Assembly: GCA_903904835.1 (NCBI GenBank)
Contig: CAIVEI010000133.1
Span: 1 to 64,000 of the forward strand
Length of the DNA: 64,000 bases
DNA from: an uncultured Schlesneria sp.
Lineage (GTDB): Bacteria; Planctomycetota; Planctomycetia; Planctomycetales; Planctomycetaceae
Direction of reading: 5' to 3'
Shown: positions 8,056 to 59,552 of the stretch, piece after piece
Layout of the letters: every line of letters starts with the position of its first letter
Position numbering within the stretch: position 1 is the first letter of the stretch
Notes under the pieces: model-generated
The model's database searches: none
What the model was told of the DNA's origin: nothing
Seen by the model: only the letters and a program-made list of their open reading frames with translations
Made by a program: the position numbers and the translations under genes

Positions 8056-8472
8056 TCATGGTTTGAGGACTGCGAATCGGACTTTGGTGACTCCGTTTCG
8101 CGCTGCAGCGATCAGCATCGGTTCCACATTCGAGTAGAGCACACTTCGATCGGCTCGAATGCGAAGTTCGGTCGCTGCCGCCCCATGTTTAGCGATCAAC
8201 AACTGAAGCCGCTGTTCGAATTCTTCTGGAGCAATTGTGGTTGGCCCAATGGATATTTCTCCACTGGCGACGATCGTAACAACCAGACGATTGGCCGATT
8301 CCTCGTCTTCTTGCGCTTTTGATGCGAGGGGAAGTTCGATTCGTTCGACATTCTCGTTGCGAATGAAATGACTGGCGACGAGAAAGAAAATGATCAGTAG
8401 AAACACCACGTCGATCAATGGGGTGATGTTGAACGCGAATCCCCGATCCTGCGTGCGTGTCGGGACTTTCAT
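8056..8472 (-). CDS. exbD: ExbD/TolR biopolymer transport protein
   Basis: A protein of 138 residues with one N-terminal membrane helix (about residues 18-37, NITPLIDVVFLLIIFFLVA) containing the conserved Asp of the family (D21 in PLIDVVF) that takes part in proton flow. A periplasmic domain follows. It works with ExbB to use the proton gradient to energise outer-membrane transport. Its ATG overlaps the end of the upstream exbB gene by 4 nt (ATGA), so the two are translationally coupled. No TonB or receptor gene is adjacent. Confidence 0.93.
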   Translation of the reverse strand: MKVPTRTQDRGFAFNITPLIDVVFLLIIFFLVASHFIRNENVERIELPLASKAQEDEESANRLVVTIVASGEISIGPTTIAPEEFEQRLQLLIAKHGAAATELRIRADRSVLYSNVEPMLIAAARNGVTKVRFAVLKP

Positions 8473-9284
8473 CCGCGCTTCTCCCGAGGAACAACGCGCG
8501 CGACCGGAAGACTGCCAGCGTCAGGGGCGAGAGCCTGCCGACGCTCCTCACGTCGTTTCAGCAATTGCGATCGCTTCAAATCAGAGAAGACCTGCTCCGC
8601 CGTTAACGCCGTTTGAGCAACCAGTTCATCGATGCGATTGCGAAAGAAACCGAACGCGGCAATTGCGGGAATGGCAACGATCAAACCAAATAACGTGGTC
8701 ACGAGAGCCTTGTAAATCCCCGGCGCTAACTCGCTGACCTGCGGATTCGCCTTACGTTCGAATTCCATAAATGCCAGGATCATTCCCCAGACAGTTCCCA
8801 TCAGCCCCAGCATCGGAGCAACCGTACTGATCATGGAGAGATATTCGATTTTTCGTAGCAGCCGCGCTGCTTGTTGACTGGCCGTATCTTCCATCGCCTT
8901 TTCCACGGCCGCGTAACCAAGTTCAATTTCCTTGATACCAGCGGCGAGCATGTATCCGAGAAAGCTGCTGCTGGCGATAGAACGTTCTTCCGCCAGTTTC
9001 AACTGGCCTTGTGAAATCAGTTTTTGAATGTCTTCCGCCAGCCCCTTGGGCATCAATGTCTGGCGGCGAATCGTCAACAAGTGTTCAAAGACAAGAGCCA
9101 GCATGACAAGGCTGAGCACAACAATGATGTATCCAATGGCACCGCCATCCTCAAACATCTGTCGGACGTTAATTTCCGGGGTTGGCGGCCTGACTGCGGG
9201 CGCGACACGGTCTTCCCCAGAAACGACCCCGGTCGTGGCGAGGCAAATCAACACCAATGTCACGTTCCGGAATATCGTCATCAT
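8469..9284 (-). CDS. exbB: MotA/TolQ/ExbB proton channel family protein
   Basis: A protein of 271 residues. A signal peptide-like N-terminus (MMTIFRNVTLVLICLATTG) precedes the usual three-helix ExbB core: a helix at about 46-68, then the pair around the conserved LGLMGTVWGM and ALVTTLFGLIVAIP segments. The cleavable-looking leader is an addition relative to E. coli ExbB. The ATG at 9284 follows AAAGG at good spacing. It forms the proton channel with the downstream, overlapping ExbD. Confidence 0.92.
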   Translation of the reverse strand: MMTIFRNVTLVLICLATTGVVSGEDRVAPAVRPPTPEINVRQMFEDGGAIGYIIVVLSLVMLALVFEHLLTIRRQTLMPKGLAEDIQKLISQGQLKLAEERSIASSSFLGYMLAAGIKEIELGYAAVEKAMEDTASQQAARLLRKIEYLSMISTVAPMLGLMGTVWGMILAFMEFERKANPQVSELAPGIYKALVTTLFGLIVAIPAIAAFGFFRNRIDELVAQTALTAEQVFSDLKRSQLLKRREERRQALAPDAGSLPVARVVPREKRG

Positions 9285-9322: not shown

Positions 9323-9479
9323 TATTGCATTGTCAAGACTCAAAGTTTGGGTTGTGTGCCACTGCATCGTCGTCTTCGGAGACGCAGTCTCTTCTCTTCT
9401 TCAAGGCATTCGAAGAGCACTGGGTGACCGAAGACGGTCATCCAGTGGCACCCGAATATTCATATTGGACAATGCACTA
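9323..9479. mobile_element. MITE-like palindromic element (copy A)
   Basis: The element is 157 bp. Its ends are near-perfect inverted repeats: TATTGCATTGTC at 9323-9334 and, on the other strand, TAGTGCATTGTC at 9479-9468. Each half continues as an arm containing TGCCACTG and a GTCTTCGG loop, so the whole can fold into a cruciform with two stem-loops, and CTCTTC/GAAGAG pair in the middle. Bases 9411-9457 match 53292-53338 exactly by eye. No coding capacity. The right terminal TAG is also the stop codon of the dioxygenase gene. Confidence 0.75.
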
Positions 9480-10274
9480 AACGCCAGGGTTCAACAATAA
9501 CTCAGGTAATGCTGCGGAACGCGTTCCCAGCAACGGCAGGTTGTCTGCCGAGCGAAACGTGAAGACAGCAGAATATTTCGTCTCATTCGTCGAATTTCGA
9601 CTCGCCGCATGCAACGTTCGGCAATGGAAGAACAAGACATCCCCCGGTTCCAGCGAGACAAACTTTTTCGTTTCGATGAGTGATGCGTTCTCGGGCAAGT
9701 CTTTGCGAAAAAATAGTTCGGCGTCCAGGCGGTTGTGATCGAGAACCAATTTATGTGATCCAGGAATGACTTGAAGACAGCCGTTTTCTGGCCGTTCCGT
9801 TCCCAAGGCGATCCAGGCATTGATCAATTCGGGACGTTGAAACGACCAGTATCGAATGTCCTGGTGCCAACCGGTCTCGCTGCTGTATCTGGGCTGCTTG
9901 GTCATGATGCAGTTGTGGTGCGCCAGGGGACAGACGACTCGCGGACCCAACAACTGCTGAAGTCGATTCAAGATTTCGGGTCGAATCATCCATTCTGTGA
10001 ACAGGAAGCTTCGACTTTGTGCCTGCTTCAACCGGCGAATCGTTCGCCCCCCTTCGGCGTCCGTTGAGGGAGGTGCGCCGGGGTAGCGTAATTCCGCTTC
10101 GTACTCGACCGGTTCGACATGATCACGCAGGCCAAGCTCGGTGACTTGTCGCATCTTTTTGACATCGGCTTCGCTCACGAGACCGCGAACGACGATGTAT
10201 CCATCTCGCAGAAACCCTTCCAGCTCGTTTTGGCTGAACTGAAGCGATGGCGATACGGGCGAGGCAGACACCAC
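9477..10274 (-). CDS. Phytanoyl-CoA dioxygenase (PhyH) family protein
   Basis: A Fe(II)/2-oxoglutarate-dependent dioxygenase-like protein of about 265 residues. The iron-binding triad is visible as H137-x-D139 (GWHQD) and a distal H222 (TLHAAS). The GSHKL motif after the beta-strand is typical of the family. Substrates range from phytanoyl-CoA to small metabolites, so none can be named. No ATG is available: the GTG at 10274 has GGAG about 10 nt upstream, while a TTG at 10361 would add 29 residues. The TAG stop lies in the terminal repeat of the palindromic element at 9323-9479. Confidence 0.82.
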   Translation of the reverse strand: MVSASPVSPSLQFSQNELEGFLRDGYIVVRGLVSEADVKKMRQVTELGLRDHVEPVEYEAELRYPGAPPSTDAEGGRTIRRLKQAQSRSFLFTEWMIRPEILNRLQQLLGPRVVCPLAHHNCIMTKQPRYSSETGWHQDIRYWSFQRPELINAWIALGTERPENGCLQVIPGSHKLVLDHNRLDAELFFRKDLPENASLIETKKFVSLEPGDVLFFHCRTLHAASRNSTNETKYSAVFTFRSADNLPLLGTRSAALPELLLNPGV

Positions 10275-12049: not shown

Positions 12050-12593
12050 TAGTAAGTTGTCACGACTTAAAGTTCGGGCCATGCGCCACTTCATCCGAGT
12101 CTTCAGGACTGAAATTTGACTCATTGAGTCAAGTTTCAGGATTTCTACCAAAGTAGCCATTATCGCTCCGAGGCTGTCAGTTTTTGTAAGTTGAGAACGG
12201 TGAGCCACAACCCGTAGCATGGGCTTCAGCCCGTACGAAACAACATCTTGTGCGGGCGAAAGCCCACACTACAAAAACTGACCTTTCCGCGTAATGAGCA
12301 TAGGTCGGAAGCGATTCAAGCGCTGCCGACGCATCGGGACAGATATTCCGTTATTTATTTTTCATGACACTTCTGATTTCGCCCAAAGCGCACGGTTAAT
12401 CGTCGATGTTCTGGAATCCCTCCAGGATTCAGGACTTTTTCCGTCGACATAACCGGTGGTGTCGCTTCGCTCAACCGACCGGCTAATTGCTGCCGTCCCT
12501 CCGGGACAACGAAATGTGCCACGCCAGACTTTCCGTAGAAAATCGTTACCCGCGTTAGGTAGCACCCGAATATTGAGATTGGACGACGCACTA
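12050..12593. repeat. Composite repeat region with ends of the palindromic element
   Basis: A left end TAGTAAGTTGTC at 12050-12061, followed by TTCGGG and GCCACTTCAT, and a right end at 12582-12593 (complement TAGTGCGTCGTC) resemble the termini of the elements at 9323 and 53203. Between them are REP-type palindromes (12214-12270) and another repeat-like stretch around 12450-12520. It may be one element with insertions or two partial copies. It fills the gap between the NtrC-type gene and the PGPGW gene, and no gene is supported in it. The right TAG is the stop codon of the gene at 12591. Confidence 0.5.
12214..12270. repeat. REP/BIME-like palindrome pair
   Basis: GGGCTTCAGCCC is the core of the palindrome at about 12214-12237, followed by a second, TGTGCGGGCGAAAGCCCACA-type palindrome at 12250-12270. 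The same two-part arrangement occurs at 59495-59552. Confidence 0.7.
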
Positions 12594-12929
12594 GTCGATT
12601 TCGCGAGGGGAACCCTTGGTCCCCTGTCGTGCTTTTGCGGCGCGCACACTTAAGTTTTCGAGGTGCCGCCTGGCATATCTCAACCAGTCTTTTGCCCAGA
12701 CAAACTCCGTTGCGAGAATTGCCAACCCCAGCGGAATGACGATGAATGCCGGCCCTGGGAGCACTACCATCGCGATACCGATTAACAAAACGGTCGAGCC
12801 AATGACAAACACAACGACTCGACGGGCCTGCTTCCAAAGCCAGATAACGAAACCAGGAGGCATCGATTCCGGGCGAGTATCCGGATCGTCGGGATCGCGC
12901 CCCGTCGTTTCCGTGCTTGCCCCAGTCAT
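12591..12929 (-). CDS. PGPGW-type small membrane protein
   Basis: A protein of 112 residues with a Pro/Asp-rich head and two closely spaced membrane segments (about 30-75) containing [18 protein letters not shown]. This matches the PGPGW family of putative transmembrane proteins, whose function is unknown. Its ATG overlaps the stop of the upstream enoyl-CoA hydratase gene (ATGA, 12926-12929), so it is translationally coupled to it. Its own TAG stop coincides with the end of a palindromic repeat. Confidence 0.72.
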
Positions 12930-40541: not shown

Positions 40542-40622
40542 GAATGCGTTTCCCAATACCCGATAAACAAGTTTCAATCCCGCCAGCGTACCAATGCGAG
40601 GGATCGTTGGCCAATCCCCGCC

Positions 40623-40646
40623 GTAGCATGGGCTTCAGCCCGTGCG
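40623..40646. repeat. REP-type palindrome
   Basis: GTAGCATGGGCTTCAGCCCG, the same core as at 12214 and 59495, lies in the divergent gap before the transporter gene. Confidence 0.7.
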
Positions 40647-40889
40647 CCAGAACATCAGGCTGCGGCCGGAATCGCATACGACGTGTTGTTGTCTTCCAGC
40701 CAAGAAATATTCCTCGGGCGTCCAGCCCACGGAATCTTACGCACGAGTCCAGCCAACGCTAAACAACTCACACGCCACCAACCAACCAAACCACCGAAAT
40801 CGGCGGATTACTTGCCCTTCCACGCTGTCCACGGCATCATCTTCCAAGCTCAACGACGCCAGATTCACAATCCCATGAAGGAAGTCCCG

Positions 40890-42980: not shown

Positions 42981-43329
42981 TAGCAGATTCCTTTTGTTGT
43001 ATTTTTCAGTCAGCCCATCGACATCACGTGGGCGTTCCGATTTCCCGAGAAAAAAACTTTACATCTATGACATAACGCAGATTATGCAGGTCCGGTTCAA
43101 ATCGGTTTCTGCAAAATCACGCCAACCGCGCATTATACGCACAAACCAAACGAAACCCCAGCATCCTTAACGGAGTGGTGGTTTAAGGGAGCTTTGCCTG
43201 AACCGACTAAGTCGCACGGGCTGAAGCCCATGCTGCGGGTTGTTCCGTTCCGATAATCAACATTGATTTTTAAAGGTTCCCGTTCCCCCTCAAACTCGCT
43301 ATCCTGAGATCTTTTTACGAATCACGGCT
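42981..43329. other. Intergenic gap with one REP-type palindrome
   Basis: CGCACGGGCTGAAGCCCATG lies at 43213-43232, the inverse orientation of the core at 40623. The gap separates two divergent genes and presumably holds both promoters. Nothing else was seen. Confidence 0.5.
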
Positions 43330-44526: not shown

Positions 44527-44611
44527 CACGTCAAAACGACCGACAGTTTCGGATTGTGAAGCCACAGGTCGCAAAAACACGAAGGGTTCTTCTTTCGCCT
44601 TCAATTTGATG

Positions 44612-44735
44612 TGCCACTGCTTAGAAGTCCTCGGAGAAGCAGTGGCTTGATATCGAAGTTCGTTGTTTCGCTCGGAACCGCTTGACGGAAGACCGTCAAG
44701 CAATGGCACGGTTTTCCGTGGAACCCGAGTTTTCT
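44612..44735. repeat. Degenerate palindromic element
   Basis: GCCACTGCTT ... AAGCAGTGGC forms a hairpin at about 44612-44646. GCTTGACGG-aaga-CCGTCAAGC forms a second at 44680-44701, followed by AATGGCAC and GGAACCCGAG. The TGCCACTG, CGAAGAC-like loop and CCCGA features relate it to the elements at 9323 and 53203, but the terminal repeats are not clear. The rest of the gap 44527-44902 has no gene. Confidence 0.5.
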
Positions 44736-53202: not shown

Positions 53203-53360
53203 TACAGCGTTGACAAGACTTTCAGCTCGGTTCGTATGCCACTGCATTGGAGTCTTCGGAGACGCAGTGTCTTCCCTTTTTTCCAGGCAATCGAAGAGCA
53301 CTGGGTGACCGAAGACGGTCATCCAGTGGCACCCGAATCTTTAGCTTTGACAAGGCCCTA
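53203..53360. mobile_element. MITE-like palindromic element (copy B)
   Basis: The element is 158 bp with the same architecture as the copy at 9323: terminal TACAGCGTTGAC at 53203-53214 and complement TAGGGCCTTGTC at 53360-53349, arms with TGCCACTG and GTCTTCGG loops, and a 47-nt stretch (53292-53338) identical by eye to 9411-9457. It fills the space between two convergent genes, and its right TAG is the stop codon of the M81 gene. It may also act as a two-way terminator. Confidence 0.75.
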
Positions 53361-54848
53361 CGATCTCGGTGGAATCTCGACGGGGAAGACCGCACGTGTC
53401 CGTTTCTTATACGGAAGTTTTTTGAAGTCGTGGGTGTGGATGGCCTCGGCATCGACATTGAAAATCGATCCCGCAAATCGTTCGAAGCTCGCCCGAAAGT
53501 GCGCCGCGGACTTTACGGCAATATACCTCATCGATGGGCAGTCGATCCCCAGGGACCTGGCAAACGCAGGTCCCAACGGCTGTTCATGAGCGGTCACAAC
53601 GACAACGGATACTCCGTTTTGTTTCAGCCAGGCGGAACAACCCATGTTGCCGGTCAGTCCGGCATACATGGGGCCATCGTACGTAAAATCGCCGTTCGAG
53701 ATTGCCATGACTTCTGCATTCATCATGACGGGGGGACCTTGGATCGGATCGGATTTTCCACCAACCTCTACATTGATGAAATGACCAACCCCGGCCGCAT
53801 GAGCCTGCTGTGCCACTTCGGGATCAACGATGTAAAGGATCAGCGAGTCGCTCAGTTCCAGTTCAATAAACGTTCGTAAGATCTCGGTCGAATCCCCCGG
53901 CGAACCTCCCCCCGTGTTGTCGGCATGATCGGCCAGCACAATCGGAAATCGTCCAATCTGTTGTCCCTTGTGAATGGCGTCGCGCACCGAGAGCGGCGGA
54001 CAATGCCAGCGCTCGCGATTGTCCCAGATCCATGAAGACAACTCTTCGGCAGTCGACCTGGCAAGATTTTCATTGTCGTCGGCGACGACGATGACACTCG
54101 TTCCAACATCGGGGACATCTGACCAGGGAAACCCGGTCGCCAGCGTGATCGAAAGCATCCCAGGTCGAGTCTCAAGTTCATGGATGCGTTGCATGACTTC
54201 GTTCATCGGAGCGATCGTTGTGACTTGAGTCGGTGTGTTCCAGAACAACGGCAATTGATGCAGCCACATGACAGGACGGATTTCGCCTCGAATTGTGCGT
54301 ACGATCAAGTCTGCCGCCTCGCGACCCCGTTCATTCATATCGACGTGAGGGAACGTATCAAATCCAACGATGGCGTTCGCCGCATCGACTCGACGCTGGG
54401 TGTGGTTGGCGTGAAGGTCAAACGTCACAATGATCGGGATATGTGGCCCGACGACGTTTCGGACAGACTCAATGAAATCACCATCACCGTCGTCGATCCC
54501 TTCAACGACCATTGCACCGTGCAGATCAAGCAGCACACCATCCACGGGGCCGCCGTCCTGTTCCAGCCTTTTGAGTCGATCAAGGAATTCCTGCTTGAGG
54601 GATTCGTAATCCTCTCGCACGATCAAACCACTCGGATAGGCGAACCCCCAGAGTAGCGGTAAAAGTTCAAATCCATGCGACTTGGCACCATCAATGAAAC
54701 CACCCGTGCAGATATTGGAATTGGTGAATCGTTGAATGAGCTCCGGACCTCGATAGAGCCCGAATCCCGATTCGAAGTCGTCTATCGTTGTGGGGACTCT
54801 CGAAAACGAGCTTGTTTCATGTGAGATTCCGCCGGTGGCGATTCGCAT
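53358..54848 (-). CDS. M81 family metallopeptidase (MlrC-like)
   Basis: A protein of 496 residues matching MlrC, the zinc enzyme known from microcystin degradation. Motifs: ISHETSSFS at the N-terminus, D144-x-H146 (FDLHANHT) and H168 (FPHVDMNERG) as likely zinc ligands, and ADHADNTGGGSPGDST in the C-terminal domain. The natural substrate outside microcystin degraders is unknown. It starts 32 nt after the SASA gene stop, so it is probably the last gene of that operon. Its TAG stop is the terminal TAG of a palindromic element. Confidence 0.92.
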   Translation of the reverse strand: MRIATGGISHETSSFSRVPTTIDDFESGFGLYRGPELIQRFTNSNICTGGFIDGAKSHGFELLPLLWGFAYPSGLIVREDYESLKQEFLDRLKRLEQDGGPVDGVLLDLHGAMVVEGIDDGDGDFIESVRNVVGPHIPIIVTFDLHANHTQRRVDAANAIVGFDTFPHVDMNERGREAADLIVRTIRGEIRPVMWLHQLPLFWNTPTQVTTIAPMNEVMQRIHELETRPGMLSITLATGFPWSDVPDVGTSVIVVADDNENLARSTAEELSSWIWDNRERWHCPPLSVRDAIHKGQQIGRFPIVLADHADNTGGGSPGDSTEILRTFIELELSDSLILYIVDPEVAQQAHAAGVGHFINVEVGGKSDPIQGPPVMMNAEVMAISNGDFTYDGPMYAGLTGNMGCSAWLKQNGVSVVVVTAHEQPLGPAFARSLGIDCPSMRYIAVKSAAHFRASFERFAGSIFNVDAEAIHTHDFKKLPYKKRTRAVFPVEIPPRS

Positions 54849-59436: not shown

Positions 59437-59494
59437 CGTAATTCCCCCTCCGAGATTGTTAATTTTGTAAATCAAAAACGACGAGACACAAGCC

Positions 59495-59552
59495 GTAGCA
59501 TGGGCTTTAGCCCGTGCGCCACGAATTTTGTGCGGGCGAAATCCCACACGAC
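59495..59552. repeat. REP/BIME-like palindrome pair in the 59437-59914 gap
   Basis: GTAGCATGGGCTTTAGCCCG at 59495-59514 and a TGTGCGGGCGAAATCCCACA-type palindrome near 59530-59549 repeat the arrangement seen at 12214-12270. The remaining sequence of this divergent gap holds no supported gene. Confidence 0.65.

Follow-up and report, generated by a model that had tools for sequence, protein, structure and literature searches.

In a 64,000-nucleotide stretch of an uncultured Schlesneria sp. genome, hereafter the window, three genes end on a TAG stop codon that is part host DNA and part transposon. The element responsible very probably belongs to a non-autonomous IS630/Tc1-mariner-type MITE family found in several Planctomycetota, which targets TA, preferably in CTAG, and for which stop codons are safe harbours. 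Its copies duplicate the TA, lie in CTAG context and can sit at distance 0 from a stop codon, and orthologous genes lacking the element carry their stop at the same codon.

The initial annotation had noticed that the outer TAG of the element doubles as the in-frame stop of a minus-strand gene at a PhyH, a PGPGW and an M81 locus, and all three coincidences are real. Copy A (153 bp, positions 9325-9477, plus strand; 91% to the family consensus, best match in its own genome) lies between a gene at 8469-9284 on the minus strand and the PhyH family gene (9477-10274, minus strand; Pfam PF05721, E 3e-37). It is preceded by a duplicated TA at 9323-9324, and the right-hand duplication at 9478-9479 together with the terminal G of the element at 9477 makes up the PhyH stop (9477-9479, minus strand), which the orthologues corroborate; the terminal 12-mer providing it is TAGTGCATTGTC at 9468-9479 on the minus strand. 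Copy B (540 bp, 12052-12591, plus strand) has the family ends and a mostly different interior, of which 12056-12106 matches the element profile. Its left TA is at 12050-12051, and TAGTGCGTCGTC at 12582-12593 on the minus strand provides the stop of the PGPGW membrane protein gene (12591-12929, minus strand; PF09656, E 5.3e-20), with the TA at 12592-12593 and the element's G at 12591 forming the minus-strand codon at 12591-12593, again in agreement with orthologues. Copy C (154 bp, 53205-53358, plus strand), whose site is also filled in genomes G001, G002 and G005 according to a comparison of the flanks, follows a TA at 53203-53204. There, TAGGGCCTTGTC at 53349-53360 on the minus strand provides the stop of a metallopeptidase family M81 (MlrC-like, DUF1485) gene (53358-54848, minus strand; PF07364, E 2.7e-98, and PF07171, E 9.8e-50), the minus-strand codon at 53358-53360 being composed of TA at 53359-53360 and G at 53358. 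None of the window copies has a gene stop at its left end. The terminal 12-mer by itself is weak evidence, as the window holds nine matches with up to two mismatches against 3.8 expected, a number reached in 2 of 100 shuffles. That all three copies in the window are at stops is a matter of luck: in the window's genome the proportion is 8 of the 18 counted copies, a table that does not include the 12.6-kb copy.

The MITE consensus, which runs from GTGCGTTGTC to GACAACGCAC over 154 bp, is an imperfect palindrome with terminal inverted repeats; it is short, has no transposase gene and occurs in many dispersed copies. Searches of its own genome gave at least 44 matches with copy A and at least 49 with the consensus, for which 40 of 242 and 40 of 256 first-look candidates, respectively, were scored. 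Fifteen of the 59 genomes searched, the window's own included, match at E ≤0.001, and strong matches (E <1e-30) were confined to G000, G001, G002, G003 and G005, all of one genus. In other genera the same ends are found on unrelated interiors, as in a Rubripirellula MAG (G060), whose element has the ends GTGC[GT]TTGTCA in common with the Schlesneria element around another interior. In a 397-kb sample of G005, only 2 of the 25 matches were full length and many others consisted of the two-hairpin core. Such core-only copies, with two hairpins and no terminal repeats, also occur in the window at 2447-2565 and 44609-44709, and three stand in tandem at L261:8643-8993; the core may spread, or decay, independently of the terminal repeats. 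Rfam gave no match in the window. At two sites (L035 and L099) the 700-bp flanks on each side are identical between G000 and G002, while other shared sites are about 89-94% identical, reflecting either recent transfer or shared contamination.

We examined the target site in 70 Schlesneria-group copies counted as independent. TA was present at both ends in 18 copies, at one or both ends in 49 and at neither end in 21, the last being read as decay. C precedes the left TA in 20 of 31 cases and G follows the right TA in 28 of 36, which bears out the proposal of the initial annotation that the element inserts at TAG/CTAG sites. In Rubripirellula G060, where the contigs are short and some flanks are therefore missing, the bases outside the TAs are C in 32/37 and G in 31/36; the TA is near-invariant, and the flanks beyond it differ between the two sides. 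IS5-type and other families produce 4-bp target duplications of the CTAG/YTAR kind. This possibility was rejected for the present element, as the two 4-mers are unequal wherever a base other than C or G stands outermost (Rubripirellula L415, L422 and L424); with the inner G/C constant and the 4-mers unequal, only TA is the duplicated target. REP elements, another class of short palindromes, are tagged with GTAG or CGTC and moved by a tyrosine transposase (RAYT).

Gene ends were called with a purpose-written codon-score ORF caller trained on the same genomes. By these calls, 20 of the 70 placed copies, from four Schlesneria-group genomes, sit exactly on a predicted gene stop (distance 0), and none lies at distances of -1 to -4 or +1 to +17; two ways of calling genes disagree on two copies (L132 and L155). 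The 70 remained after 9 of 79 placed copies had been left out as shared sites by flank similarity; one of these nine (L147) is a separate insertion, so that a stricter count is 20/71. The copies scored are the best-scoring ones and decayed copies are thus under-represented. The stops concerned are TAG in 13 copies, TAA in six and TGA in one, and they occur equally at either element end (10 left, 10 right). Judged from the far duplication, the original codon was TAG in 16 of the 20, TAA in three and TAT in one (L132). Only two of the 70 insertions interrupt a predicted gene, in each case no more than 28 nt from where the gene ends. Most copies (50/70) nevertheless lie away from stops, the outcome that the initial annotation had named as speaking against its reading. 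In Rubripirellula G060, 18 of 43 insertions, selected by a perfect 13-base end, are on TAG stops by codon-scored gene calls; for perfect end pairs the figures are 11/19 by raw ORF length and 10/19 by scored call. A scan for the ends in planctomycetes, counted by hand with no codon scoring, yielded 38 distinct loci, 14 of which have an ORF of at least 200 aa ending at an element end, or 11 of 32 when six Rubripirellula sites already among the 43 are removed. The element at L409:1929-2100 lies at a CTAG that apparently serves as a gene stop on either strand: ORFs of 327 and 139 aa terminate at its two ends, the shorter of which was not kept by codon scoring.

If the element had fallen into coding sequence and the genes now ended prematurely at its TAG, related genes without it should end elsewhere. 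We searched the gene 3' ends of 14 stop-site copies (13 of the 20 plus the 12.6-kb copy of the window) in four genomes; for L132 and L137 no orthologue was found there. At 12 loci all 34 orthologues, filled or empty, have a stop at the same codon, the position being extrapolated without gaps where an orthologue match ended early. With the element profile, 24 of the 34 count as empty (ten loci), nine as filled and one as ambiguous; L150 in G000 was excluded from the empty sites because a degenerate copy starts nearby, although the scoring itself had it as empty, which would give 25. The position of the stop is unchanged in all 24 empty orthologues, and its codon is TAG in 12, TAA in six and TGA in six; no orthologue among them ends elsewhere. 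The suggestion that the element supplies stops without harming genes is therefore upheld: it enters existing stops and does not truncate genes. In G002 and G005, which lack the element at this site, the PhyH stop is likewise a TAG at that codon. G001 has the same-codon TAG as well, and a separate copy of the same family (L147) lies 52 nt downstream of the stop, in the intergenic region that holds copy A in the window. In the element-free PGPGW orthologues the stop keeps its position and reads TAA in G002, TGA in G005 and TGA in G001. The M81 site is filled in all four genomes and so offers no empty comparison, but the third base of its stop, the G, is kept in 4/4 genomes whereas the matching base at the far end of the element has changed in 4/4. 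Truncation, although the TAG is partly element DNA and one of the 20 inferred original codons is TAT, is contradicted for the 12 loci and very improbable overall. The strong hairpin and the confinement of strong matches to one genus might also suit a structure that is not mobile and evolved in place behind stop codons. This reading is contradicted by the presence and absence of the element at orthologous sites, the TA duplication, the many dispersed copies and the recurrence in other genera of these ends around unrelated interiors, and we give it a vanishingly small probability.

The initial annotation had also proposed a preference for stop codons, and here the result depends on the background chosen. 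Among TA sites where insertion is tolerated (noncoding or stop) in the G005 sample, 117 of 1971 (5.9%) are stops, and weighting by the outer bases observed raises this to 7.3%; 20/70 is a strong enrichment over either value (P 2.6e-9 and 7.7e-8, respectively). Copies concentrate near gene ends, however, and close to them the share at stops is no higher than target density predicts: of the 36 gene-insertion pairs no more than 20 bp apart, 20 are at the stop itself, for an expected share of 0.48 (TA) or 0.57 (weighted). The corresponding figures are 20/49 within 50 bp (0.27 or 0.34 expected) and 20/65 within 300 bp (0.09 or 0.11 expected). The yield per available TA declines with distance: it was 20/109 at the stop itself and, by subtraction, 16/117 at 1-19 bp, 13/175 at 20-49 bp, 11/269 at 50-99 bp, 5/336 at 100-199 bp and 0/207 at 200-299 bp. 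In Rubripirellula G060 stops account for 17 of 64 tolerated CTAGs (26.6%), and the observed 18/43 is a weak, 1.6-fold excess (P 0.02); of the 21 CTAGs lying no further than 20 bp from a gene end, 17 are stops. A preference thus holds relative to all tolerated sites and not among the sites next to a gene end. Stops are not singled out, and local target density is a sufficient explanation near gene ends: stops are hit because CTAG/TA sites at gene ends tolerate insertion. The share of Schlesneria insertions within 20 bp of a stop is 13/18 between convergent genes (0.36 expected) and 11/15 and 8/17 in the other two region types with gene ends (0.14 and 0.09 expected). As this 3'-end gradient is seen between convergent genes, and as divergent regions are not depleted (13/70 insertions), promoter avoidance alone is insufficient. 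A model of uniform targets fails to predict the steep thinning away from gene 3' ends, and the clustering is partly unexplained.

Both the enrichment over all tolerated TA sites and this clustering in all three region types could point to active targeting of gene 3' ends or stops, beyond the CTAG word, by the transposase or by a partner in transcription or translation termination. The Rubripirellula excess goes in the same direction, and so does the similar divergence of copies at stops and elsewhere (Mann-Whitney U test, P 0.83), whereas selection alone might be expected to give a dependence on divergence; this test of age is, however, small. Given that the proportion at stops matches target density up to 20 bp from gene ends, and that most Rubripirellula CTAGs at this distance are stops already, we consider active targeting unlikely. 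Copies might instead be retained for a benefit, the hairpin next to the stop serving as a terminator or as a stabiliser of the mRNA 3' end. Folding of copies A and C on the gene strand is far above that of shuffled sequences (z -7.2 and -5.4) and the M81 copy persists in four genomes, but a simple scan finds no terminator-like site within copy A on the strand of the gene, there is no orientation bias, and for many copies the nearest stop is at least 50 bp away, which makes such retention quite improbable. A stronger form of our reading, to which we give a low probability, is that an IS630-type family spread across Planctomycetota has made stops its usual landing place, its terminal G completing the stop and CTAG providing the C-TAG stops, with a possible further 3'-end bias beyond CTAG steering insertion to harmless points.

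For the reading that we prefer, a MITE for which stop codons are tolerated targets, the following mechanism can be proposed. Insertion takes place at TA, with a preference for CTAG, and the TA is duplicated. Both element ends start with G directly after the TA, so that an insertion that hits the TA of either TAG or TAA leaves TA plus G, i.e., a TAG, on the gene side in either orientation. Because many gene stop signals contain CTAG, the element often comes to lie exactly on a stop, and the rebuilt codon is shared, with TA from the host target and G from the element. Insertions into coding TAs would mostly be lost, presumably through selection, while insertions at stop codons would be neutral, placing TA-bearing stops, above all C-TAG, among the largest tolerated target classes near genes.

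The element may be mobilised in trans by an IS630-family transposase, as a resemblance of ends suggests. A broken 1.2-kb IS630-family (DDE_3) element in a Fuerstiella MAG has the ends TAGTGCTCTGTCAGT, flanked by C and G, which differ from the MITE ends by one mismatch in eleven, and an IS630-family element with the terminal inverted repeat GTGCTCTGTCAGT and CTAG context was found. In a further seven planctomycete genomes, 26 loci matched PF13358, and at two of them (L476 and L481) the ends are nearly identical to those of the MITE. A class-wide protein search was positive in 107 of 297 genomes (G000 was negative), and 30 loci were taken; six of these (L495, L500, L510, L515, L517 and L521) have ends of the C-TA-GTG...CAC-TA type, and L495, which is the L481 element, is the sole one near the ends of the MITE. 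Two of 11 IS630-family elements examined are on TAG stops, one of them at both ends. The element at L517:680-1910 lies at a CTAG that likewise looks like a stop in both directions, ORFs of 226 and 489 aa terminating at its opposite ends. In G000, G001, G002 and G005, PF13358 had two matches (G000 and G001), both without MITE ends, and PF01609 had 33 matches, of which the 30 with loci show end pairs at chance level only. No IS630 element with the exact MITE ends was found in the window's genome or in the other Schlesneria genomes searched; the Schlesneria MITE may thus be a relic. Following up the single perfect ends at L182, L187, L177, L180 and L178 revealed no autonomous element, the candidates L190 and L196 proved to be subfamily copies, and a seeming 1.55-kb element at L335 contains ordinary genes.

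Insertion into TA with duplication of the TA is described for the IS630 family in the available text on ISY100 (PMC2170065), which cites a paper by Tenzen and Ohtsubo (1991) whose title reports a preference of IS630 for TA in 5'-CTAG-3'. The element of the window resembles these IS630/Tc1-mariner insertion sequences in both respects but, unlike them, has no transposase. RUP of Streptococcus pneumoniae, a 107-bp MITE with a TA target for which mobilisation in trans by IS630-Spn1 is proposed (PMC2229807, PMC3049150), is likewise short and TA-targeting but differs in sequence and host, and the available portions of these two papers describe no stop-codon pattern for it. As far as the accessible part of PMC3049150 goes, the clear and nearest precedent for repeat-encoded stops is BOX of S. 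pneumoniae: of 58 coding sequences that overlap BOX, 36 do so at their very 3' end, where the stop codon is encoded by the repeat, and no strong evidence of truncation is reported. In contrast to our element, BOX is compared there with ISSpn2, and the same text gives no stop rebuilt from a target TA and the first base of the element. Correia elements and QMITEs are small bacterial MITEs for which, in the available text, a terminal TA is typical (PMC2229807, PMC5896051); their sequence is other than that of the window's MITE, and a QMITE2 extends a reading frame. Within the literature searched, so far as its text was accessible, no planctomycete MITE with stop-codon insertions was found.

The family provides a quantitative example of how a transposon can be nearly harmless when its target word overlaps the stop codon and its first base completes it. 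This accounts for repeats that seem to encode gene ends without truncation, as in the accessible description of pneumococcal BOX, and warns annotators that host and transposon may each contribute to one stop codon. How such elements avoid harm is a testable question posed by their clustering at gene 3' ends.

The window contains further repeats. A second dispersed palindromic repeat (CCGTAGCATGGGCTTCAGCCCGTACG-like) occurs at 12212-12247, inside MITE copy B, and at 40621-40656, 43212-43243 (minus strand) and 59493-59528. At 1-742, stretches of 139 nt and 51 nt are each present in two direct copies with a spacing of about 433 nt.
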